Positions 9,784 to 25,003 of a stretch of 25,003 bases of DNA are shown here, piece after piece; positions within the stretch are counted from its first letter, which is position 1; each line of letters starts with the position of its first letter. This DNA comes from a virus. A model generated the notes under the pieces. That model had not been told where the DNA came from, did no database searches, and saw nothing but the letters and a program-made list of their open reading frames with translations. The stretch lies in the IMG/VR virus record IMGVR_UViG_3300048006_000071, positions 1 through 25,003 of that record; one strand, given 5' to 3'. Position numbers and translations under genes: made by a program.

Positions 9784-11067
9784 TTAATCGAGTTTTAAAA
9801 GTTTGAGTTTATATTCAAAGATTTCAATATCAGACATTTCCTCCGCCTCAGCTTGCACCTCAACTTCAGCACCCTCTGATTCGGGTGTATCTTTTCTCAT
9901 CATTAGCTCACTTGTTGCATCCGGGTACGCGGGTTGCGCAACTGGCGATACATCAAGAAGCCTTGATACTTTTTCTATTATTCTATAGGTTTTTCCATCA
10001 CGCTCTTCCCAGCGGTCGCTCTCAATCAAGAAGGCGAATGAACTTTGGTTCACATCACCTCTCTTCATCAATTCAACCAAATCTTTTGCGTATGAAGTAT
10101 TCGGTAGGTCAACCTCATAGTAGAGTCCTCGCTCATCACTACTAAGGCGTAAGGTTCCGCTGGACACTCTACCAAGTAATAAATTCTCATCGTGATTGAA
10201 ATAAGCGCGTGTATCGTTATCCATTACATCATCAAAGGCTCCCTTTGCAATCTGCTCGTAGAAGCCTCCCATCCATTCACTGTCGCTGTTGTAAACAGCA
10301 GCATAACCCCTAATGGTTTCACCTTCGTACTCAGCGCTCTCCATACGGAACTCACGCTTCTCAATGATAGCCTTGTGGCTACGCACCTCAGCATCAAACT
10401 TCTCTAAAGTAGAGAAGCGGTGCGCGACATTAAGCGCCGGTTTGCGCTCGATGTAGGCCTCCTCTTCCGAAGAGTAGCGGTATATTCTAATGAGTGCCGC
10501 TGGATCATCAGCAGTGCCATTGACCTTAAAGCCACTATCTGCCTCGATTTCTCCATCTCTTTCGATTTGAATGATAACACCGTAAGCGCTTCCGCCGCTT
10601 GTGCTCCAACGTACAAAATCACCTACGCTCAATGCATCAGGTTCTGCACGCTCCTCATCTTTATATCCAGCCTCTTCCATCTCACCCTTACCGAATGTGA
10701 TGACAATTTCCTCATCAGTCTCAACAACTGACTTGATGTGGCGCTCGTTTTTATTTTCTTCCATTCCTTCTATCGTTCTTTTTGCCCAGCGCAGCATCTC
10801 ATCACCGCCCCAAGCTGCATACATAATAGAACCGCAAATCTCCTTGCCGTCCTCATCAGTGAACTTACCTTGGTCGTAGGTCTTCGCTCTACTCAAAAAG
10901 CTGTAAGTTCTTACAAGCGTTTCATCGCTGAGGTTTTCTTTACCCGCGATTTGGTTTGCTCTTGCCCATCCTACAGGTGTACCACAATCCGTACCATTCT
11001 CCTCACGGAAGTCTAAAGCACGTTGTGCATTGTTTACTGCTGCTTGTGGATAGTCATTGTATGGCAT
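9784..11067 (-). CDS. Prohead protease with N-terminal and Tudor-like extra domains
   Basis: 427 aa, about twice the usual length of HK97 gp4-type proteases. Residues about 235-395 are the peptidase U35 domain: EGETIRGYAAVYNSDSEW, GAFDDVM, FNHD with likely catalytic His292, and QSSFAF with Ser342 or Ser343. Upstream is a separate N-terminal domain at 10-100 (NNAQRALDFREENG, GTPVGWARANQIAGKENLSD), known in phage serine proteases of the XkdF kind. A second one at about 145-215 (LSVGDFVRWSTSGGSAYGVI, DDPAALIRIYR) resembles the hypervirulence-associated Tudor-like DUF2945 domain. The protease cleaves the capsid delta domain and itself during head maturation. Gene order portal-protease-capsid is canonical. 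Confidence 0.85.
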   Translation of the reverse strand: MPYNDYPQAAVNNAQRALDFREENGTDCGTPVGWARANQIAGKENLSDETLVRTYSFLSRAKTYDQGKFTDEDGKEICGSIMYAAWGGDEMLRWAKRTIEGMEENKNERHIKSVVETDEEIVITFGKGEMEEAGYKDEERAEPDALSVGDFVRWSTSGGSAYGVIIQIERDGEIEADSGFKVNGTADDPAALIRIYRYSSEEEAYIERKPALNVAHRFSTLEKFDAEVRSHKAIIEKREFRMESAEYEGETIRGYAAVYNSDSEWMGGFYEQIAKGAFDDVMDNDTRAYFNHDENLLLGRVSSGTLRLSSDERGLYYEVDLPNTSYAKDLVELMKRGDVNQSSFAFLIESDRWEERDGKTYRIIEKVSRLLDVSPVAQPAYPDATSELMMRKDTPESEGAEVEVQAEAEEMSDIEIFEYKLKLLKLD

Positions 11068-12275
11068 TACTCAGCAGCGTTATCAGTTCCCGCTTCAACC
11101 ATATTCATAGGTTGTAAGTAAATATCTCCTCCATCAATTGGGTCAAGGCTTTCGTGTTTGCGTATATCATTAACGCTCAACCATCCCCATTGTCTTGCCG
11201 TTGCATAGCTTGAGTATCTGCTTGAGATATCACCGCGAAGAAGCCCATCCATATTGATACGGATAAAATAATCCTCTTGGCCAGGGAATAACTTGCGGTT
11301 AAACTCTGCCTCCCAACGCTTTACCCAAGGGAGTATCGTGTTGCGCTGGAACTGGATGCCTTGTTCCTCAATGTTGGCTCGAGTGCTTGAGTTCTCTAAT
11401 GATCCAAGATAAGCCAATGGGATACGGAAAAACCTTGCAATGTCTTCTACTCCAAACTTACGCGTTTCTAAAAACTGCGATTCTTGTGGTGAGATGCTGA
11501 CCTTTTGCAAGTTCATTCCTTCTTCCAATATAGCGGTCTTATGTGAATTGTCAAGACCGCTGTACCTACGTTGCCAAGAAGCCATTAAACGCTTATAGGC
11601 TTCATCTGATAGGCGGCCAGGATGCGTGAGCACCGCGCTTACGTTTGCGCCATTACCAAAGAATGAGCCACCGAACTGGTCAGCAGCCAAACCAAGGCCT
11701 ATGCTTTCTCTTGCTGCCTCTATTACACTCTTACCAATGATACCGTCAAACGATAACCCTAAAATGTGTATCATCTCAGTATCATCAAAGGTCTCTTTAC
11801 CTTGGTCGATGTTGTAGAACTTCTCATCCTTGTAGACCTTAACCTCAACGCGGTCGGGGTGTACTGGAATCAGTTTAACGGGCTGGCCCGCTTCGTTTCT
11901 ACGAATCGCAATAAATGCATTCCCGTGCAAACAAAGGTGCGCCTGACAAACCTCTCTAAAGTTAAAGTCCGTCATCATCCCGTTCGGGTGGTGTATGAGC
12001 TTATTGATTGGGTGTGCTGATGCGTTGCGGGTGCTATCGCCTACATCTTGCTTCACTGCCCACGGCAATGATGCTATAGTCTCGGAAATAACACGAACGG
12101 CACCAAATACCGCAGAAAGGCGCATAGCACTATCCTCAGTGATTGCAATACCCGTTTTTGAGGCCGCGCCGTCAAACATCCAAGAAGCGGGATTCGCTAA
12201 TGATGTTGAGGGGTTATTAGGCGAAGAGCGGAATGCTCCAATGATACGCCCAAATAGATTCTGATTCTCGGCCAT
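11067..12275 (-). CDS. Portal protein (HK97 family)
   Basis: 402 aa. TEDSAMRLSAVFGAVRVISE followed by TIASLPWAVKQ is the conserved start of the HK97-type portal core (Phage_portal). It is followed by HPINKLIHHPNGMMTDFNFR and LCLHGNAFIAIRR. The C-terminal part has FRIPLAYLGSLENSSTRANI then EEQGIQFQRNTILPWVKRWE, the typical stem and crown region. Twelve copies form the DNA channel at one capsid vertex. Its ATG is 30 nt after a TATATTTG promoter-like box and follows a strong terminator, so head genes probably begin their own transcript here. The stop overlaps the protease ATG. Confidence 0.9.
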   Translation of the reverse strand: MAENQNLFGRIIGAFRSSPNNPSTSLANPASWMFDGAASKTGIAITEDSAMRLSAVFGAVRVISETIASLPWAVKQDVGDSTRNASAHPINKLIHHPNGMMTDFNFREVCQAHLCLHGNAFIAIRRNEAGQPVKLIPVHPDRVEVKVYKDEKFYNIDQGKETFDDTEMIHILGLSFDGIIGKSVIEAARESIGLGLAADQFGGSFFGNGANVSAVLTHPGRLSDEAYKRLMASWQRRYSGLDNSHKTAILEEGMNLQKVSISPQESQFLETRKFGVEDIARFFRIPLAYLGSLENSSTRANIEEQGIQFQRNTILPWVKRWEAEFNRKLFPGQEDYFIRINMDGLLRGDISSRYSSYATARQWGWLSVNDIRKHESLDPIDGGDIYLQPMNMVEAGTDNAAE

Positions 12276-12305
12276 AAAGTAGTGTGTACTTTGTAATTAC
12301 ATCAC

Positions 12306-12321
12306 CAAATATAAGTATCGC
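12306..12321 (-). promoter_or_regulatory. Probable promoter of the head operon
   Basis: Minus strand AGCGATACTTATATTTGGTG. TATATTTG (12306-12313) is an exact match to the Bacteroidetes -7 consensus TAnnTTTG. The -33 position, 19 nt upstream, is a T-run from the preceding terminator with no clear TTTG. The exact word GCGATACTTATATTT also precedes the LamG gene, hinting at a second recognition element just upstream of the -7 box. Confidence 0.6.
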
Positions 12322-12330
12322 TAAATGGGA

Positions 12331-12363
12331 ATAAAAAAACCCCCTCAAATCAATGAGGAGGTT
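12331..12363 (-). terminator. Strong Rho-independent terminator before the portal gene
   Basis: Minus strand AACCTCCTCA (12363-12354) pairs with TGAGGGGGTT (12347-12338) over 10 bp with one T-G pair and a 6-nt loop TTGATT, followed by seven T residues running into ATT. It ends the transcript of the 66-aa gene and separates it from the head operon. Confidence 0.85.
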
Positions 12364-12634: not shown

Positions 12635-12680
12635 TAAATATACAAAAAAATAAATACGAAACAAATGCCCCAGCGTTTGT
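12635..12680 (-). promoter_or_regulatory. Bacteroidetes-type promoter with overlapping dyad (operator-like)
   Basis: Minus strand: TTTG (12665-12662), 19-nt spacer, TATATTTA (12642-12635), a near-exact match to TTTG-N19-TAnnTTTG. The 66-aa gene ATG is 25 nt downstream. A 20-bp imperfect palindrome, ACAAATGC CCCA GCGTTTGT (12661-12680, 8 paired positions with one G-T), covers the -33 box and could be a repressor site. The promoter match is strong; the operator role is inferred. Confidence 0.7.
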
Positions 12681-12685
12681 CAAAG

Positions 12686-12825
12686 ATGCAAGTATCTATT
12701 TACCTACGGAGGAGGCTATGCCTCCGTAGGGAAATAAATACAAAGACAAATACCTTTATTTTTTATTTTTTTTCTCTATATATAGGAGGAACAAAAAGAA
12801 AATTAACAGGTAAATGTTAATAACG
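12686..12825. repeat. 140-bp intergenic element, copy 1 (hairpin, A-tract, inverted repeat)
   Basis: Nearly the same 140 bp recurs at 24862-25003. In plus-strand order it holds ATGCAAG; a 50-nt hairpin (12692-12741; outer 16-position stem with one mismatch and one G-U, inner perfect GGAGG/CCTCC); an AT-rich 32-bp block (12754-12785) identical in both copies and ending TATATATAG; and a 7-bp inverted repeat ATTAACA-N6-TGTTAAT (12802-12821). Read on the minus strand, that last repeat is followed by T-rich sequence like a weak terminator. It overlaps the end of the 49-aa gene. It lies between the large terminase transcript and the 66-aa gene promoter. Confidence 0.85.
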
Positions 12826-12966
12826 CTCTTTTTGTATCGTGTAGCTTTTACCCTCAAAAATGAGTTCAACGGAGTAGTTATTCCCTCCCTCGTGTCTTAA
12901 AAAAGGAGACAATCCTGGAACATCGAAGAGCAGCAACCCAACCTTTTTGGCTTCATCTATGGTCAT
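12817..12966 (-). CDS. Small 49-aa protein after large terminase
   Basis: ATG at 12966-12964 overlaps the terminase stop as ATGA, the coupling used across this genome, and the frame runs 49 codons to TAA at 12819-12817. The protein begins MTIDEAKKVGLLLFDVPGLS and ends LIFEGKSYTIQKERY. It reads as a normal small alpha/beta protein, not random translation, with two strand-like segments (NNYSVELIFEG, KSYTIQKERY). No family is recognised. Its last three codons and stop (CGT TAT TAA) lie inside the 140-bp repeat and are present in the other copy too. Confidence 0.65.
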   Translation of the reverse strand: MTIDEAKKVGLLLFDVPGLSPFLRHEGGNNYSVELIFEGKSYTIQKERY

Positions 12967-14510
12967 AAGAATCGGATTTCTTGACTTTCATAAGTGCTGA
13001 CTTTCGATACATCAGAATTCTCAACCGTCATCTTTTCACCCAGCGCCATTATCATTGCAACAACGCCATCAATCTTATCGCCAGCTTTTGCTTTAGAGAA
13101 CTTCACGTTCTCAGCATCATCTTTCTTCACCACAACATTCCCTACCATCCATCTAAGCATAGAGTGACCGCCGTGGTGCAATGCTGCCTTCTTAATCAAT
13201 ACCTCAGCATTCTTGATTGGGCCACTCATAGATACAAACCCTTGACCGAACGGGTCCATATCAACACCCTCATCTACAAGCTGCTGTACCAAAGAGTTGG
13301 AGTTCCACCTGTCAAAAGCGATGCTCTGCACATCAAACACATCAGCGGCCTCCAATATCTTCTGCTTGATAACGCCATAGTCAGTGCTGTTGCCATCGGT
13401 AACAATAAGCTCACCTTTAGATACAAAGCTGTCGTACGATCCACCCGTTTGCACCCTTCTGCGCTCCACGGCGGCCTCACTTACAAATAGATAGGGCAAC
13501 ACCTTGATACTGCCATCATCCCAAGGGAATACCAAAACAAAAGCAGTGACATCCTCAACGGCTGCTAAATCTAAACCGCCATAACAAGGCCTCCCTTTTA
13601 ACTCTTCTAAGTGTACACTACCCGAGCTTTTCATCCATTCATCATCAGATATCCAGCCACTTAAACTATTCACCCATTGGTTTAGGTGCAACTGCCTAAA
13701 TGCAATCTCACTGGACGGTAGGCTCTTTGCCTCTTGGCTCATCTTTCTGAAATACTCGGGCTTGATGCTCACATCAAAGTTAGGGTTTGCCTTTCGCCAA
13801 GTCTCCTCACTATGGATATCATCATCAAGAGAGGCCTCATATATAAGTGGCAAGAAAGTGCTGTCCTCAATGATTCCGCTGCGCACCTTCTTCCCATAAT
13901 CATAAAGCTCATAGCAAACGCTGTTAGGATCGAAGAGGCCCGCAGTAGAGATGCCGAACATAAGCGGCTGGGAACGTGCACCCATAGATGTAGCCATCAC
14001 ATCCCAAAGCTCACGGTTTTTAGCAGTATGCACCTCATCATACAATACCGCACTCGCATTGCTCCCGTGCAAAACACCAGCATCCGCAGCGACAGCTTTA
14101 AGGAATGAGTTGGTGCCGTTAAGAACAATCGAGTTGCGGTACACCTTACAAGCGCGCTCGAGTACAGGTTGATTCCGAACCATTTGCTTACATACGTCAT
14201 AGATAGCATTTGCTTGGTCGCGTGATGAGGCGCATACATATATCTCCGCTCCTGGCTCTTTCTCTACGAATAGTAAAGCCAAACCAATAGCAGCGAGTAG
14301 GTTACTCTTTCCATTCTTACGCGGGATGAACACAAACGAGGTGCGGTACTGCCGAGTACCGTCTTGGTTTACCGTACCAAAGAGTTGGCGGATGTATTCT
14401 ATCTGCCACTCCTCTAATATGAATGGCTTATTCGCTAAGTCACCCTTAACGTGGGTGCAGACCTTTTCTATAAATCTGATGACCCTATCTGCTTTGTTGC
14501 TGTCGTACAT
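12963..14510 (-). CDS. terL: Terminase large subunit
   Basis: 515 aa, Terminase_1 (HK97 gp2-like) family. The ATPase has Walker A PRKNGKS at residues 63-69 (SFVFIPRKNGKSNLLAAIGL), Walker B VLYDEVH at 155-161, and the coupling motif GISTAG at 186-191. The nuclease domain begins with GGLDLA (Asp314) and ends with a conserved Asp in GDKIDGVVAMIMALG. The enzyme powers DNA packaging into proheads and cuts the genome. It normally follows the small subunit directly; here a methyltransferase gene intervenes. Start ATG 14510 is 2 nt after the methyltransferase stop. Downstream, a 49-aa gene, the repeat and a 66-aa unit separate it from the portal. Confidence 0.92.
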   Translation of the reverse strand: MYDSNKADRVIRFIEKVCTHVKGDLANKPFILEEWQIEYIRQLFGTVNQDGTRQYRTSFVFIPRKNGKSNLLAAIGLALLFVEKEPGAEIYVCASSRDQANAIYDVCKQMVRNQPVLERACKVYRNSIVLNGTNSFLKAVAADAGVLHGSNASAVLYDEVHTAKNRELWDVMATSMGARSQPLMFGISTAGLFDPNSVCYELYDYGKKVRSGIIEDSTFLPLIYEASLDDDIHSEETWRKANPNFDVSIKPEYFRKMSQEAKSLPSSEIAFRQLHLNQWVNSLSGWISDDEWMKSSGSVHLEELKGRPCYGGLDLAAVEDVTAFVLVFPWDDGSIKVLPYLFVSEAAVERRRVQTGGSYDSFVSKGELIVTDGNSTDYGVIKQKILEAADVFDVQSIAFDRWNSNSLVQQLVDEGVDMDPFGQGFVSMSGPIKNAEVLIKKAALHHGGHSMLRWMVGNVVVKKDDAENVKFSKAKAGDKIDGVVAMIMALGEKMTVENSDVSKVSTYESQEIRFL

Positions 14511-14511
14511 A

Positions 14512-15495
14512 TTAAAAAAGGCTTTGCTGTTTGCTCTTCTCTTGCTGGTGCTTTAATCTATTCATTGCAACCTCGTGATATTTCTCGTCTATCTCAAAAC
14601 CTATAAAGTTGCGATTCTCTTTTTGCGCCATTGCGCATTCCGTTCCACTACCAGCAAATGGAACCAAAACCAAAGCATCCGCCTTGGAACAAGTCAACAT
14701 TAAAGCGCGGGTTAGTTTTTCTGGCTTAATCGTATCGTGCTGGTATGTTTTATTAGTATTTGTGTTAAACTGTAAAACCTCATTCAAATTTAAGAAGTTG
14801 CTGAATGGTCTGCGCAGCTCTTCGTATTCTTTGCGCAGCTCTTCGTATTCTTTGCGCAGCTCTTCGTAATCACGATTGAAGAATCCAGTTTTTTGAAGTA
14901 ATTCATATTTCTCTTTTGTGGGTATTGAGAATTGCTCTTTGTTTCTTTTTGAGAATCCAAAATAATGACTGCAAGTCGATCCATAAGTATCGCACATTTC
15001 TCTAAGTGTTAATCCAGTCTTTTCGTGCTCTTCATCTAAATACTTTTTGATAGGCATAAAGAGTTCGGGGTTTGCAAATATCATATAAGCACCACTTTTA
15101 TCTTCGCCTTTATCATACATCAAGATGCGCTCAGTGCATATCGGAAAACTTCTAACGCTATCTCCCCCGGTGCTTCCAAACATACCACCCCTAAGATTAT
15201 ATTTATACCAAATCAAGCTATTTATTAAACTAAAATGTTTATCGAATATGATTTGAGCATAAGCTATACGCTTGTCATCGCCATACCAAAATAAGGTACC
15301 GTTATCTTTCAGCACCCTCTTGCATTCAATTGCCCACTTTTCTACATCTTTAAGGTAGTCATCAAAGGAGTCCCATATAAAGTCAAAATCACCCTTCACT
15401 TCAAAGTATGGTGGGTCTGCAATTATTAAGTCAACGGATTGGTCAGGTAGTCCATTGTTCATCCAGTCGCTGTTGTGTATTGTATTTATCTCCAT
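14512..15495 (-). CDS. DNA N6-adenine/N4-cytosine methyltransferase, beta class
   Basis: 327 aa, N6_N4_Mtase family. The catalytic motif DPPY is at residues 27-30 (VDLIIADPPY) and the SAM-binding motif PFAGSGT at 279-285, followed by FIGFEIDEKYHEVA. Catalytic motif first and SAM motif last defines the beta class, with the target-recognition region between (about 130-250). Within that region YEELRKE is repeated about three times (residues 210-228), encoded by a 21-bp tandem DNA repeat, and would form a short charged helix. No restriction partner is adjacent, so it is probably an orphan phage enzyme protecting DNA from host restriction or marking it for packaging. It sits between the terminase subunit genes. 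Confidence 0.88.
   Translation of the reverse strand: MEINTIHNSDWMNNGLPDQSVDLIIADPPYFEVKGDFDFIWDSFDDYLKDVEKWAIECKRVLKDNGTLFWYGDDKRIAYAQIIFDKHFSLINSLIWYKYNLRGGMFGSTGGDSVRSFPICTERILMYDKGEDKSGAYMIFANPELFMPIKKYLDEEHEKTGLTLREMCDTYGSTCSHYFGFSKRNKEQFSIPTKEKYELLQKTGFFNRDYEELRKEYEELRKEYEELRRPFSNFLNLNEVLQFNTNTNKTYQHDTIKPEKLTRALMLTCSKADALVLVPFAGSGTECAMAQKENRNFIGFEIDEKYHEVAMNRLKHQQEKSKQQSLF
14811..14869. repeat. 21-bp tandem repeat, about 2.8 copies, inside the methyltransferase gene
   Basis: Units TGCGCAGCTCTTCGTATTCT-T start at 14811, 14832 and 14853; the first two are identical and the third matches for 16 bases. On the coding strand each unit encodes the heptad YEELRKE, keeping the frame. Such repeats are prone to slippage by whole units, which would lengthen or shorten the protein without breaking it. 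Confidence 0.9.
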
Positions 15496-18589: not shown

Positions 18590-18812
18590 TCTCTATTCTT
18601 TTTTCTATGGCGGTTTTTCTATATTTCTTGATGTGTGTGACCTCACCTGTGCTGTCATTCTTTACAAAGCGAATGGCGTGGCCGATGATTGCCGTATCGT
18701 TTACTTCCTTAATTAATGGAAGCATCTCTTGCTTGCGCACAGGCTTCTTCTCGCCTATGTGCATATCTACAATGAGCTGTGCTATCTTATTTCGTGTCTT
18801 TAGGTCTATCAT
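18579..18812 (-). CDS. Hypothetical basic protein
   Basis: 77 aa, basic. MIDLKTRNKIAQLIVDMHIG, then EKKPVRKQEMLPLIKEVNDT, and a strand pair IGHAIRFVKNDSTGEVTHIK. The helix-strand pattern, with TAIIGHAIRFVKND near the middle, may be a small winged-helix-like DNA-binding domain, but I do not recognise a family. ATG overlaps the primase-helicase stop as ATGA, and the C-terminus overlaps the next gene by 11 bp. It is probably a replication accessory factor by position only. Confidence 0.65.
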   Translation of the reverse strand: MIDLKTRNKIAQLIVDMHIGEKKPVRKQEMLPLIKEVNDTAIIGHAIRFVKNDSTGEVTHIKKYRKTAIEKRIENET

Positions 18813-20776
18813 AAATCAATAGGGTCTTCACCATCTTTAGGGCCAAGCGCTACAATCTTGGGGCGCTTACCATCCCAATGTATTATACTATTTTCTTCCA
18901 TCAATGCCAAAACCTTCTCAGCATCCTTGCGCTTGCAGTCCTCCGTATCGCGTATGAAAGTGGCAGCATCGCCTTTGCTCTTACCTAATATCTTGGCGGC
19001 AATGCGGTGCTTATCCTCATCAGTCCAAACGCGTGTCTTGTTGTAGAACTCATCAACCTCAACCTCGCTGAACTCAACAAGATCAAAGCCACCAATACTC
19101 ATCTCAATCGCTGGCGGTTCTATGTTCCTTGTGTACTCGGGTGTGATTTCAGTGATATCTCTATTGTGCTCACTCTTCTTAGCGCTGAAGGTGCTCTCGC
19201 TCTTCTGAACGATATACTGCCCAAGGTGTCCCTTAGCATTTCTATCGTTCTTATTCTCGTGCAGCACAACGGTGATATGGCAGTTGTATTCTGCTGTCCA
19301 TTTCAGTAGCTTAGAGGCTATTGCTGTGGCTTCCTCCTCATCATTCACACCCTTAGAGGCTACATCAGCAATACCATCGATGACCATATACCCGATGTTC
19401 TCCTCCGTTCTAAAGATGTAATCTATTGCAGCGAGTCGGAGCGCGTTTGTATCCAAGCTGCGGAGCTTGATGTACTCGATATGGTCGTAGTTGATGTTGT
19501 TTTGAAGTCCAGCCATCTCGTGCACCCTCTTCTTCGCCTTAGCGGCGTGGAAGTCCCCTTGCTCGGTGTCAATATATAAGACCTTACGCGGGTAGATATA
19601 CCCTCGGAGGTGCTCACATACCATTGAGTCCGATGATGCTGCCGCTGCGAGTGCTGATAGGAAGAAACTCTTGCGGCTCTTCGCTTTTCCTTGCACGAGG
19701 CTAAAGTTTCCAAAAGAGCCGATGATGTAGCTGTTCTGACCAAAAACCATCTCAAGAGCTTTAGGAGGTTGGGATACTTCAATAGTAGAGTCAACGCGTA
19801 GCTTTGCCAGTAGCTGGCCCATCTCTTCTTGTACTTCTTCATCATCTAAATCTATATTAAAGTCGTTCGGTGCATTTAACTCATAGCGCTTGCCGTAGCC
19901 TTGCTGTCTTATATCCTTGATGGCCTCATCAAAGCTACCGCCGTGTTCTAATAAGGTATAGCATTGGAAACCGTCGTAGGGCATCTCAGCCTCAAAGGCG
20001 CTGCTTGTTGTCCACGGCCAAAACAGCTCGGTGTCTTTAAATATCACGCCACTTGTTTTGCTGTCCGTTGATCCAGGGCGCAGCAGATAGATGTACTTGC
20101 TGCTTTCCCCTACTATTGTCCAGCCGTAGCGCTGTAAGATATCAAGGGCTGTGTGTGTTGCTCTAAACTCACCCCACGGCGTTTGGTCTTGCGTTTGGAT
20201 GTCACCGATGCGCTTGCTTTCGACAACCACTTCCTTCTGCATCTCATCCATTGTACGGGCTACCCGGAAGATAACGTCGCGCTCCACGGGGCTGATTCGC
20301 TTAACGTTGGTTATCTTCCCGAGTATCTTGTACCCTTTGCTTGGGTAGGTAACGATTTGACCACCTCGGCCTCTCGTTTCAAAGGTCACCTCACCATCTA
20401 TATTACGAGCGAGCTTTTGATTGCCCGCTATCTCATCGCATTTAAATATCCAATGGAACCCACCGCTGCGCGTGGTTTGTATAATCATCTTATCCTTAAG
20501 GCCAGGAGATTCCTCCTCGAGCCTCTCGCAGAAGACCTCATACTCCTTACCTCTAAAGTGCTTGGCATCGATATCAAGGCATTGGATGCCATCGAAGCCC
20601 ATCACTAAACCTATGCTCCCCGTGTTTTGGAAGAGGCTCTCGGCTTCTTGGAGTCCCATAGGCTCCACACCATACTGCTGCCAATTCCTTATGCTTGGGC
20701 GCTTCTCCCCATCAATAAGTGGGATGGGGCTAAAGCCGTGCGCAAGGTATTTCTTAGCTATTGTTGTTGTATTCAT
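18809..20776 (-). CDS. Primase-polymerase / RecA-fold helicase fusion
   Basis: 655 aa. Residues 1-170 are an archaeo-eukaryotic-type Prim-Pol domain: HGFSPIPL, catalytic LDID (Asp68, Asp70), GGFHW (His108), and FETRGRGGQIVTYPS (131-145). A linker domain (about 205-300) follows. Residues 345-540 are a RecA/RepA-like ATPase: Walker A position GKAKSRKS (363-370), VLYIDTEQGD (399-408), Walker B YMVIDG (463-468), and a motif VVLHENKND (503-511). The Walker A lacks the second Gly (Arg at 368), a variant I associate with AAA_25-type helicases of Bacteroidetes elements. The protein would prime and unwind DNA at the phage origin. ATG overlaps the upstream nuclease stop. Confidence 0.87.
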   Translation of the reverse strand: MNTTTIAKKYLAHGFSPIPLIDGEKRPSIRNWQQYGVEPMGLQEAESLFQNTGSIGLVMGFDGIQCLDIDAKHFRGKEYEVFCERLEEESPGLKDKMIIQTTRSGGFHWIFKCDEIAGNQKLARNIDGEVTFETRGRGGQIVTYPSKGYKILGKITNVKRISPVERDVIFRVARTMDEMQKEVVVESKRIGDIQTQDQTPWGEFRATHTALDILQRYGWTIVGESSKYIYLLRPGSTDSKTSGVIFKDTELFWPWTTSSAFEAEMPYDGFQCYTLLEHGGSFDEAIKDIRQQGYGKRYELNAPNDFNIDLDDEEVQEEMGQLLAKLRVDSTIEVSQPPKALEMVFGQNSYIIGSFGNFSLVQGKAKSRKSFFLSALAAAASSDSMVCEHLRGYIYPRKVLYIDTEQGDFHAAKAKKRVHEMAGLQNNINYDHIEYIKLRSLDTNALRLAAIDYIFRTEENIGYMVIDGIADVASKGVNDEEEATAIASKLLKWTAEYNCHITVVLHENKNDRNAKGHLGQYIVQKSESTFSAKKSEHNRDITEITPEYTRNIEPPAIEMSIGGFDLVEFSEVEVDEFYNKTRVWTDEDKHRIAAKILGKSKGDAATFIRDTEDCKRKDAEKVLALMEENSIIHWDGKRPKIVALGPKDGEDPIDL

Positions 20777-23246: not shown

Positions 23247-23425
23247 CTTCTTCTCCTTTCGTATTTACGGATGAGCTGTGCATTGTTATCCAATAGCTTT
23301 ACAACATCATCATTCCACTGCGTTCTGCTTGCTGTTAAAACCGTGTTGAGTGTTTCCCAGCGCAGCTCATTAATGTACTTATCGATGAAGCGTTTATGCG
23401 CCACCTTCCTAAATAGCTTTTTCAT
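23231..23425 (-). CDS. Hypothetical small basic protein (64 aa)
   Basis: MKKLFRKVAHKRFIDKYINE followed by LRWETLNTVLTASRTQWNDD and RKYERRRRWVKF: helical, basic, with an Arg-rich C-terminus that could bind nucleic acid. It overlaps both the DnaA-like gene (17 bp) and the 106-aa gene (16 bp), which supports its being translated. No family or function recognised. Confidence 0.62.
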   Translation of the reverse strand: MKKLFRKVAHKRFIDKYINELRWETLNTVLTASRTQWNDDVVKLLDNNAQLIRKYERRRRWVKF

Positions 23426-23987
23426 CTCTTGCTTTTTTCTCCTTATACATTTGAGTGAAGGCCGTCTTGTAATGGTCGCGCTCGGAGGTCACCTTACGCA
23501 CTGCCGTTTGCAGCATACGCATCTCTCTTTTAATCTCCTTGATTTCATCCTTAGCTGCGCGTTGCAGCTCTGCCATCTCTCTCTTCTTTTCCTTTACCTC
23601 AAAGCGTGCCTTACCTATCTCCTCACGCATCTCCAATTGAGACATCGGCTTATGGGTGTTGTCACCGAGATAGCTCTTGCAATAGTCATAAATCTCGCAG
23701 TACAGGTAGAAGGATACTTGGCGTTCTGATGGGTCGCTGTGGTAGCGTATTTGATGTTGCTTCACTGCGTGAATCACTGAGCAATGGCTCATACCTTTAT
23801 AGAATACCTCACCATTTTTAAGCACCTTGTAAGGAAAGAAGCGAGCGATCTCATTCATCGTGTGAATGGAACGTAGAGATACCATAATAGCGTTGCGGGC
23901 ATCGACCACATCCCTCCGCCGTGTGCGGAGAGATGAGTCAATACCGAAATGCTTATGCACCTCTTTTATCATATCATTTGCTATCAT
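23409..23987 (-). CDS. DnaA domain IV-like DNA-binding protein with coiled-coil tail
   Basis: 192 aa. Residues 5-80 match the C-terminal DNA-binding domain of DnaA: KHFGIDSSLRTRRRDVVDAR, then NAIMVSLRSIHTMNEIARFF, and MSHCSVIHAVKQ, which corresponds to the DnaA signature RDHTTVLHACRK. Compared with DnaA there is an insert of about 10 residues between the helix-turn-helix helices (YKVLKNGEVFYKG). The AAA+ ATPase is absent. Residues 115-192 are a long, highly charged predicted coiled coil (MREEIGKARFEVKEKKREMA, KREMRMLQTAVRKV). It could bind DnaA-type boxes, two of which lie in the adjacent non-coding region, and recruit or block the initiator. Coupled to the SSB gene by TAATG. Confidence 0.72.
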   Translation of the reverse strand: MIANDMIKEVHKHFGIDSSLRTRRRDVVDARNAIMVSLRSIHTMNEIARFFPYKVLKNGEVFYKGMSHCSVIHAVKQHQIRYHSDPSERQVSFYLYCEIYDYCKSYLGDNTHKPMSQLEMREEIGKARFEVKEKKREMAELQRAAKDEIKEIKREMRMLQTAVRKVTSERDHYKTAFTQMYKEKKARDEKAI

Positions 23988-24538
23988 TAGAACGGCAAAT
24001 CATCATCTTCCTCAGTAGCGAATGCTTCCGAGGCTGTAGCTACATCGGGAGTAGATGTAGGCACTTGCTCTTGCCCAGCTACCAATGGTTCAACCTTTAC
24101 ATCTTCCCAAAGGTCATCATCATCAGCACCGTTCACATCATTCAAGGATAGGATAATGCCCTTGTTGATGTAAGCAGTTAGGCCTTTCTTTCCCGCCATC
24201 TCCCAGCTCTTAATAAAGGCTTTGGCGCGTAGCGTTGTGCCATTGCCGATGAGATCATCAAACGGCATCTTTGAGGTGTCCCAAAGTTGTGGCGGGTTGT
24301 TGGTCTTTAAGCGCACCGTCGGATGCTCGTACTTGAGCGTTCCATCTTGGCGCTTAATGTTGACGTGCTCAAGAATCTTCATTGATTCAAGCGTTTTGAT
24401 GCTCTCCGCATCAAGGGTAAGTTCTACTTGATACTTACCGCTCATCTTGTTTGGGCCACTTTTCTCAGTGAGTTGTGCCCAATTGGTTGTGCCCGTTAAT
24501 ACCGCGGACACGCCCTTTGCAAAATCTAACTTTGCCAT
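23987..24538 (-). CDS. Phage single-stranded DNA-binding protein (SSB-like)
   Basis: 183 aa. The N-terminal about 145 residues form a beta-rich domain (MAKLDFAKGVSAVLTGTTNW, GKYQVELTLDAESIKTLES, TTLRAKAFIKSW) of the kind seen in phage ssDNA-binding proteins with an OB-like fold. An acidic, Pro/Thr-rich linker follows and the protein ends in DDDLPF, almost the DDDIPF tip by which bacterial SSB recruits replication and repair enzymes. This tip strongly supports the call. It is the first large gene after the control region, so it is expressed early. The leader TACAACAATT before ATG has no Shine-Dalgarno. Confidence 0.8.
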   Translation of the reverse strand: MAKLDFAKGVSAVLTGTTNWAQLTEKSGPNKMSGKYQVELTLDAESIKTLESMKILEHVNIKRQDGTLKYEHPTVRLKTNNPPQLWDTSKMPFDDLIGNGTTLRAKAFIKSWEMAGKKGLTAYINKGIILSLNDVNGADDDDLWEDVKVEPLVAGQEQVPTSTPDVATASEAFATEEDDDLPF

Positions 24539-24749: not shown

Positions 24750-24771
24750 TTTAGTTGTTTTTGGTTATACC

Positions 24772-24802
24772 CAAACTTACACAATAAAATTTAATTCACA
24801 AC
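24772..24802 (-). promoter_or_regulatory. Bacteroidetes-type early promoter
   Basis: Minus strand: GTTG (24802-24799), 19-nt spacer, TAAGTTTG (24779-24772), an exact match to the -7 box TAnnTTTG. The TTG at -33 fits the Flavobacterium form of the consensus. It points at the 41-aa gene and the whole replication cluster behind it. Confidence 0.72.
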
Positions 24803-24819
24803 AATCAACAAAGAATTAA

Positions 24820-24963
24820 TTATCCACACCATTGTACACAGCTCCTTTTCATCTGCCTTAAATGCAAGTATCTATTTACCTACTCGGGGCCACAAGGCCC
24901 GATAGGGAAATAAATACAAATGCAGATTTATCTTTATTTTTTATTTTTTTTCTCTATATATAG
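24820..24963. other. Candidate replication origin (DnaA boxes plus AT-rich unwinding element)
   Basis: TTATCCACA at 24820-24828 is an exact DnaA box, and TTGTACACA at 24832-24840 is a one-mismatch version in the same orientation. Next to them are the 50-nt hairpin (24868-24917) and a 32-bp AT-rich block (24932-24963) suited to strand opening. The region precedes genes for SSB, a DnaA-like protein and primase-helicase. Origin function is inferred from this combination. Confidence 0.5.
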
Positions 24964-25003
24964 CAGCAGCAAAACAAAAATTAACAGGTTTTTGTTAATA
25001 ACG
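24862..25003. repeat. 140-bp intergenic element, copy 2
   Basis: Second copy of the element at 12686-12825, in the same orientation, reaching the window edge. Outer hairpin arms (24868-24883, 24902-24917) are identical to copy 1 except one base. The 18-nt centre differs completely (TCGGG..CCCGA instead of GGAGG..CCTCC) but still pairs, with single-base bulges. The 32-bp AT block and the inverted repeat ATTAACA-N6-TGTTAAT (24980-24999) are conserved, as is CGTTATTAA. In copy 1 that last stretch ends a gene with Arg-Tyr-stop, so a gene with the same ending may lie just beyond the edge. Confidence 0.85.

Follow-up and report, generated by a model that had tools for sequence, protein, structure and literature searches.

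Promoter-phased tandem DnaA boxes and a two-copy structured element at the early operon boundary of a putative Bacteroidota phage

Phage gene control in the host phylum Bacteroidota is little studied. The put RNA of phage HK022 is reportedly a two-hairpin leader RNA, located at the start of early operons, which resists termination. At the origin of phage lambda, DnaA influences transcription, and the promoters pR and pO are accompanied by DnaA boxes near pO (PMC3985674). In Flavobacterium, the -7 consensus TAnnTTTG of the Bacteroidota sigma-A promoter occupies the positions -12 to -5 (PMC9723704). The DNA stretch analyzed here (named the window) comprises an entire linear virus record (25,003 bases) and has the phage genes on the minus strand. 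As in lambda, boxes of the host DnaA type adjoin a phage promoter upstream of replication genes (PMC3985674). The lambda boxes are located downstream of pO, whereas those of the window lie upstream of the promoter and start at -61 and -73; the phylum and the promoter class are different, and the window has at most a candidate origin. Compared with Bacteroidota sigma-A promoters, the window shares the -7 element TAAGTTTG, the -33 TTG and the 19-nt spacer, with the tandem DnaA boxes as an extra feature. The likeness to the HK022 put elements (PMC9378689) lies in the two structured copies per phage near the starts of major transcription units. In contrast to put, the window element has a different stem architecture and no Rfam family match over its length, and it is positioned upstream of the predicted sigma-A start, so that its presence in a leader is only a possibility.

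Judging from the sequence, we consider it fairly probable that the locus controls the early (replication) operon of a Bacteroidota phage, with tandem DnaA boxes regulating a sigma-A promoter and a hairpin element that is separate. The sequence shows a sigma-A promoter of the host type that has two DnaA boxes at set positions and leads into the genes of the single-stranded DNA-binding protein (SSB) and of a DnaA-domain-IV protein. Host DnaA, or less likely the phage DnaA-domain protein, would bind the tandem boxes, and the bound protein would regulate, most likely activate, the transcription of the SSB-PrimPol operon, by which early expression would be tied to the replication state of the host. 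The adjoining element is one of two copies marking both operon boundaries; it probably works as RNA, folded within the sense transcript, to process or regulate the two operons. If this is true, Bacteroidota phages use the host replication initiator as an input to the early promoter.

The early promoter and the tandem DnaA boxes

The phage is placed with the Bacteroidota, the presumed host phylum, because of the promoter type and the PrimPol matches, which are to Cellulophaga and Flavobacterium phages. A close and near-complete relative (named G001, 29.8 kb) extends from terS round to just before the next terS, with the main genes all on one strand. Inspection of the G001 ORFs by eye, as opposed to an exhaustive domain search, revealed no gene for an integrase, repressor, RNA polymerase or Rep protein, and the phage is lytic-looking. 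In the window, the boxes are followed on the minus strand by an SSB-like gene (Gp2.5-like, PHROG 112; 183 aa, 23987-24538), the gene of a 192-aa protein with a predicted DnaA domain IV fold (23409-23987), and a PrimPol/AAA_25 helicase-like gene (655 aa, 18809-20776), a gene order that the initial annotation had described correctly. No SSB relatives were found in host genomes (GTDB contigs); in INPHARED, the SSB gave only weak matches and the DnaA-domain protein had no relatives. Two minor features are located elsewhere in the window. Three tandem 21-nt repeats at 14811-14873 lie in a DNA methyltransferase-like gene and encode a repeated EYEELRK, and a match to the Rfam family sR2 at 9846-9907 on the minus strand (E 0.0086, below the gathering score) lies within a coding region and is probably due to chance.

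A Bacteroidota sigma-A-type promoter precedes the SSB operon at 24772-24801 on the minus strand. The -33 TTG at 24801-24799 is separated by a 19-nt spacer from the -7 element TAAGTTTG at 24779-24772, which agrees with TAnnTTTG and an upstream TTG at about 19 nt, and the predicted start is near 24767. This promoter between the boxes and the genes had been overlooked in the initial annotation, as had a second copy of the hairpin and AT-rich region at 12676-12825 (see below). The exact DnaA box noted there, TTATCCACA at 24820-24828 of the plus strand, is indeed the single exact copy in the window and reads TGTGGATAA on the minus (coding) strand. The neighboring 9-mer at 24832-24840 (TTGTACACA, or TGTGTACAA on the coding strand) has the same orientation with 3 nt between, giving TGTGTACAA-tgg-TGTGGATAA in coding-strand order. 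It had been taken for a one-mismatch box, but it differs from TTATCCACA at two positions (that is, from TGTGGATAA on the coding strand), and at one only from the relaxed TTWTNCACA. The locus has two close DnaA boxes, the second of which is imperfect.

Measured on the minus strand, the exact box begins precisely 49 nt, and its neighbor precisely 61 nt, upstream of the -7 element. Relative to the predicted start they are placed at about -57 and -69, the exact box covering approximately -61 to -53. The 57-nt pattern TGTGGATAA-N40-TAnnTTTG occurs once in the window against 0 expected, and the tandem box pair was obtained in 0 of 2000 dinucleotide-block shuffles. Single boxes with at most one mismatch are not enriched in the window (4 observed, 6.5 expected). 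Within all the loci collected at that stage, we further surveyed -7-like sites preceded by a -33 TTG, allowing boxes with at most one mismatch; boxes were found at 49 nt in seven contexts and at 61 nt in one, with one stray at 117 nt. Because the spacing to the promoter is fixed, the boxes look like an early-gene switch rather than a shown origin, and a fixed promoter position that is kept in relatives is the sequence pattern of a DnaA-regulated promoter.

Among the relatives, the -49 box is exact in the clade of the window and has one mismatch in both L038 and L041, and the -61 box is exact in L038 and has one mismatch in L041. The two offsets are occupied by TGTGGATAA-ttg-TGTGGAGAA in L038 and by TGTGGACAA-cgc-TGTGGAAAA in L041. 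Two boxes 12 nt apart are retained in these three lineages, which are not fully independent because of their shared ancestry. In the distant L079, with an SSB identity of about 45%, an exact box is found at -49 of the SSB-proximal promoter. Boxes are absent from L035-L037, L078, G013, L008 and L009, yet, L078 aside, all of these are recorded as sharing the SSB and DnaA-domain genes, and the boxes of L080-L082 are degenerate. The control is therefore not essential to the phage family. L080 and L081 show TGTTAATAA at the same offset, as an UP-like element could give, which would fit the view that the 9-mers are just AT-rich sequence upstream of the promoter with a chance likeness to DnaA boxes. 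We hold such a chance resemblance to be quite improbable: the exact nonamer appears again at -49 in the distant L079, and the pair, kept 12 nt apart in three lineages, did not arise in the shuffles.

A viral-wide scan for tandem boxes at -49/-61 yielded 11 loci, 8 of them in this phage family. The three matches outside the family prove little alone, since a control scan with the spacing changed by +6 nt yielded 5 loci, which came from three contigs that carry real DnaA-box arrays. Three phages with no obvious kinship to the family, L192 (3129), L194 and L196, have TGTGGATAACTATGTGGATAAC-type tandem boxes at -61/-49 before TATCTTTG promoters. In 395 Bacteroidia genomes, the single-box -49 pattern was present in 21 genomes compared with about a dozen matches of the reversed control, a modest excess. 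Several tandem DnaA boxes were also observed upstream of an apparent ribonucleotide reductase gene in a Candidatus Kapaibacterium contig (L204, 6848-6916).

The 192-aa protein with a DnaA domain

The DnaA-domain gene directly follows the SSB gene in all relatives examined. An AlphaFold model of the 192-aa protein, built with 14 sequences, has a mean pLDDT of 86.9. Residues 1-110 best match DnaA domain IV over about 90 residues (1J1V, Z 10.2; 3PVP, 9.6; 1L8Q, 8.9), and the next matches, separated by a clear gap, are unrelated coiled coils with Z 6.7. The profile of the protein family finds 1L8Q and 1J1V at E about 0.004, and a Pfam match was obtained in 12 of 14 relatives, with the window protein below the gathering score (26 vs 31.5). 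At E <= 0.001, Foldseek by itself returned no match, and the DnaA assignment is based on a second look with VIA-align together with the sequence profile. By model and sequence, the protein combines a DnaA domain IV fold with a long coiled coil at residues 117-191. The phage protein differs from DnaA by the missing AAA+ domain, an inserted beta hairpin, the C-terminal position of its coiled coil and an altered base-reading motif (SHCSV vs DHTTV).

The location of this gene as the second of the operon and its fold raise another explanation, in which the boxes are an autoregulatory site and the phage DnaA-domain protein shuts down or activates its own operon. We regard autoregulation as unlikely. 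Besides the alteration of the base-reading motif, the motif of L035 is almost the same as that of L041, but L035 has no boxes, and L079, whose protein shares no more than about 17% identity, has an exact box. Because boxes differ where the motif is nearly the same, and a box stays exact where the protein is divergent, host DnaA rather than the phage protein is more likely to read the boxes.

The boxes as a candidate replication origin

The region had been proposed as a phage replication origin. The conserved and promoter-phased box pair beside the DnaA-domain-protein gene is the well-supported part of this proposal, and the origin itself is a hypothesis. The boxes are phased to the promoter. 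As an origin, the locus would have its boxes bound by DnaA or the phage DnaA-domain protein, which would open the AT-rich block; the PrimPol-helicase would start synthesis, perhaps at the hairpin, and the promoter would help by transcriptional activation as in lambda. The AT-rich run and the hairpin upstream of the boxes are present as annotated, adjacent to the boxes and the replication genes, the DnaA-domain protein is real, and lambda couples DnaA boxes, promoters and origin (PMC3985674). Nevertheless, we find an origin at the boxes doubtful. The AT block and the hairpin are repeated at 12.7 kb without boxes, and the boxes are absent from a number of relatives that share the replication genes (L035-L037, G013, L008 and L009). 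Moreover, the box phase tracks the promoter and not the hairpin, the distance from hairpin to box being variable (e.g., a 35-nt insertion in L031). In the GC-skew check proposed with the origin claim, the cumulative skew of the near-complete G001 rises without a turning point. A genome that has every gene on the same strand would be expected to show this, so skew cannot place an origin here. Replication may start near the early promoter as well.

The structured element at two operon junctions

The hairpin region next to the boxes is part of an element of about 140 nt that exists in two copies, with 24862-25003 recurring at 12686-12825 with 83% identity. The early copy lies at the lysis/SSB junction. 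The late copy lies between the terminase large subunit gene terL (12963-14510, minus strand) upstream and a portal-like gene (11067-12275, minus strand) downstream, which has a conserved position after terL and is presumed to encode the portal from gene order and size. In the coding direction, each copy consists of H1, then H2, then the long hairpin H3, all given here on the minus strand. H1 of the early copy is a small inverted repeat, TTAACA-N6-TGTTAA (24981-24998), and H2 contains the invariant CTATATATAG (24954-24963) in an imperfect palindrome running from T-rich to A-rich. The early H3 (24852-24927, 95.9 bits) has an outer helix ATCTGC/GCAGAT, internal loops and a long stem, and the late H3 (12676-12751, 89.6 bits) has an outer helix TTTGTC/GACAAA and a different stem. 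The late H2 and H1 together occupy 12776-12820, with CTATATATAG at 12776-12785 and H1 at 12803-12820. The distance from H1 to TATATATAG is 18 nt in all main-family copies. The late main-family copies that were read have no DnaA boxes, and the AT-rich run recurs without boxes at 12.75 kb. Since both recur without boxes at the late junction, the hairpin and the AT block belong to a junction element and are not box-specific.

The H3 stem contains one U.G pair and one C-U mismatch, both invariant, and two-sided changes were found in 9 of 23 pairs. In total, 30 cells changed on both sides compared with 10.2 in shuffles, and 96% of the cells pair, against 86% when shuffled and 38-51% with the partner slid; covariation in the stem is strong, and compensatory changes keep the helices. 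A covariance model, the source of the 95.9 and 89.6 bits of the window copies, scored copies outside its training set (L133, L058, L008 and L009) at 59-73 bits. Exactly two strong copies, at the lysis/SSB and terL/portal junctions, were detected in each of the window, G001, G003, G008 and G011. The RNA model gave weak matches in 2 of 295 Bacteroidia genomes.

Other readings of single parts of the element were also considered. An intrinsic terminator was rejected for H3, which has no T run and the wrong arm polarity (T-rich arm first, A-rich arm second); the sense strand after H3 reads TAAATAGATACTTG. For TTAACA-N6-TGTTAA as an operator, the arms also change in the distant copies L056 and L128, and a non-exhaustive inspection of the G001 ORFs found no repressor. 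For CTATATATAGGGAGA as a T7-like promoter, a single-subunit RNA polymerase was not recognized among the G001 ORFs.

An RNA role is our first choice because mispairs in the main family, read on the sense strand, are G.U and never A.C (16 vs 0), and because the late copy runs in the sense direction and extends over the stop of the gene upstream. The same two observations stand against the element acting at the DNA level, as a cruciform or single-strand hairpin in replication, recombination or packaging. We give such a DNA structure a tentative place, since distant copies are perfect palindromes without a G.U excess. The genomes of G016 and G017 each have their two strongest hairpins at this same pair of junctions, as palindromes of 24-26 bp that are unrelated in sequence, and beyond the main family, G.U mispairs are roughly as frequent as A.C mispairs. 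In L130 (1456-2501), a spanin-like lysis gene is followed by the element and then by a 66-aa gene and the portal, so that the lysis end is joined directly to the portal side and the early half is skipped. This join, which would suit a DNA-level structure, is seen in a single contig and may result from recombination between two copies or from mis-assembly. Stems at the portal junction are widespread: in a set of 66 portal loci, the median score was 32 for the best stem upstream, compared with 17 within the gene downstream and 14 in shuffled sequence, and such a stem is missing in a few loci (L142-L144 and L175).

A broader view, which we put forward as a possibility short of probable, is that this is a previously undescribed two-copy boundary element, its sequence wholly replaced between lineages, whose copies would serve together as a switch or a processing signal dividing early and late units, with host DnaA gating the early promoter. 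Two hairpins that hold their position despite sequence turnover indicate strong selection on structure at operon boundaries.

The last base of the window record (25003) is one position beyond the early copy and L025 starts inside a copy, which suggests that assemblies may break at the element hairpins. Downstream of the late copy, a terminator-like hairpin with a T run at 12300-12362 follows the 66-aa gene, and a second TATATTTG promoter is located after it, immediately before the portal gene.
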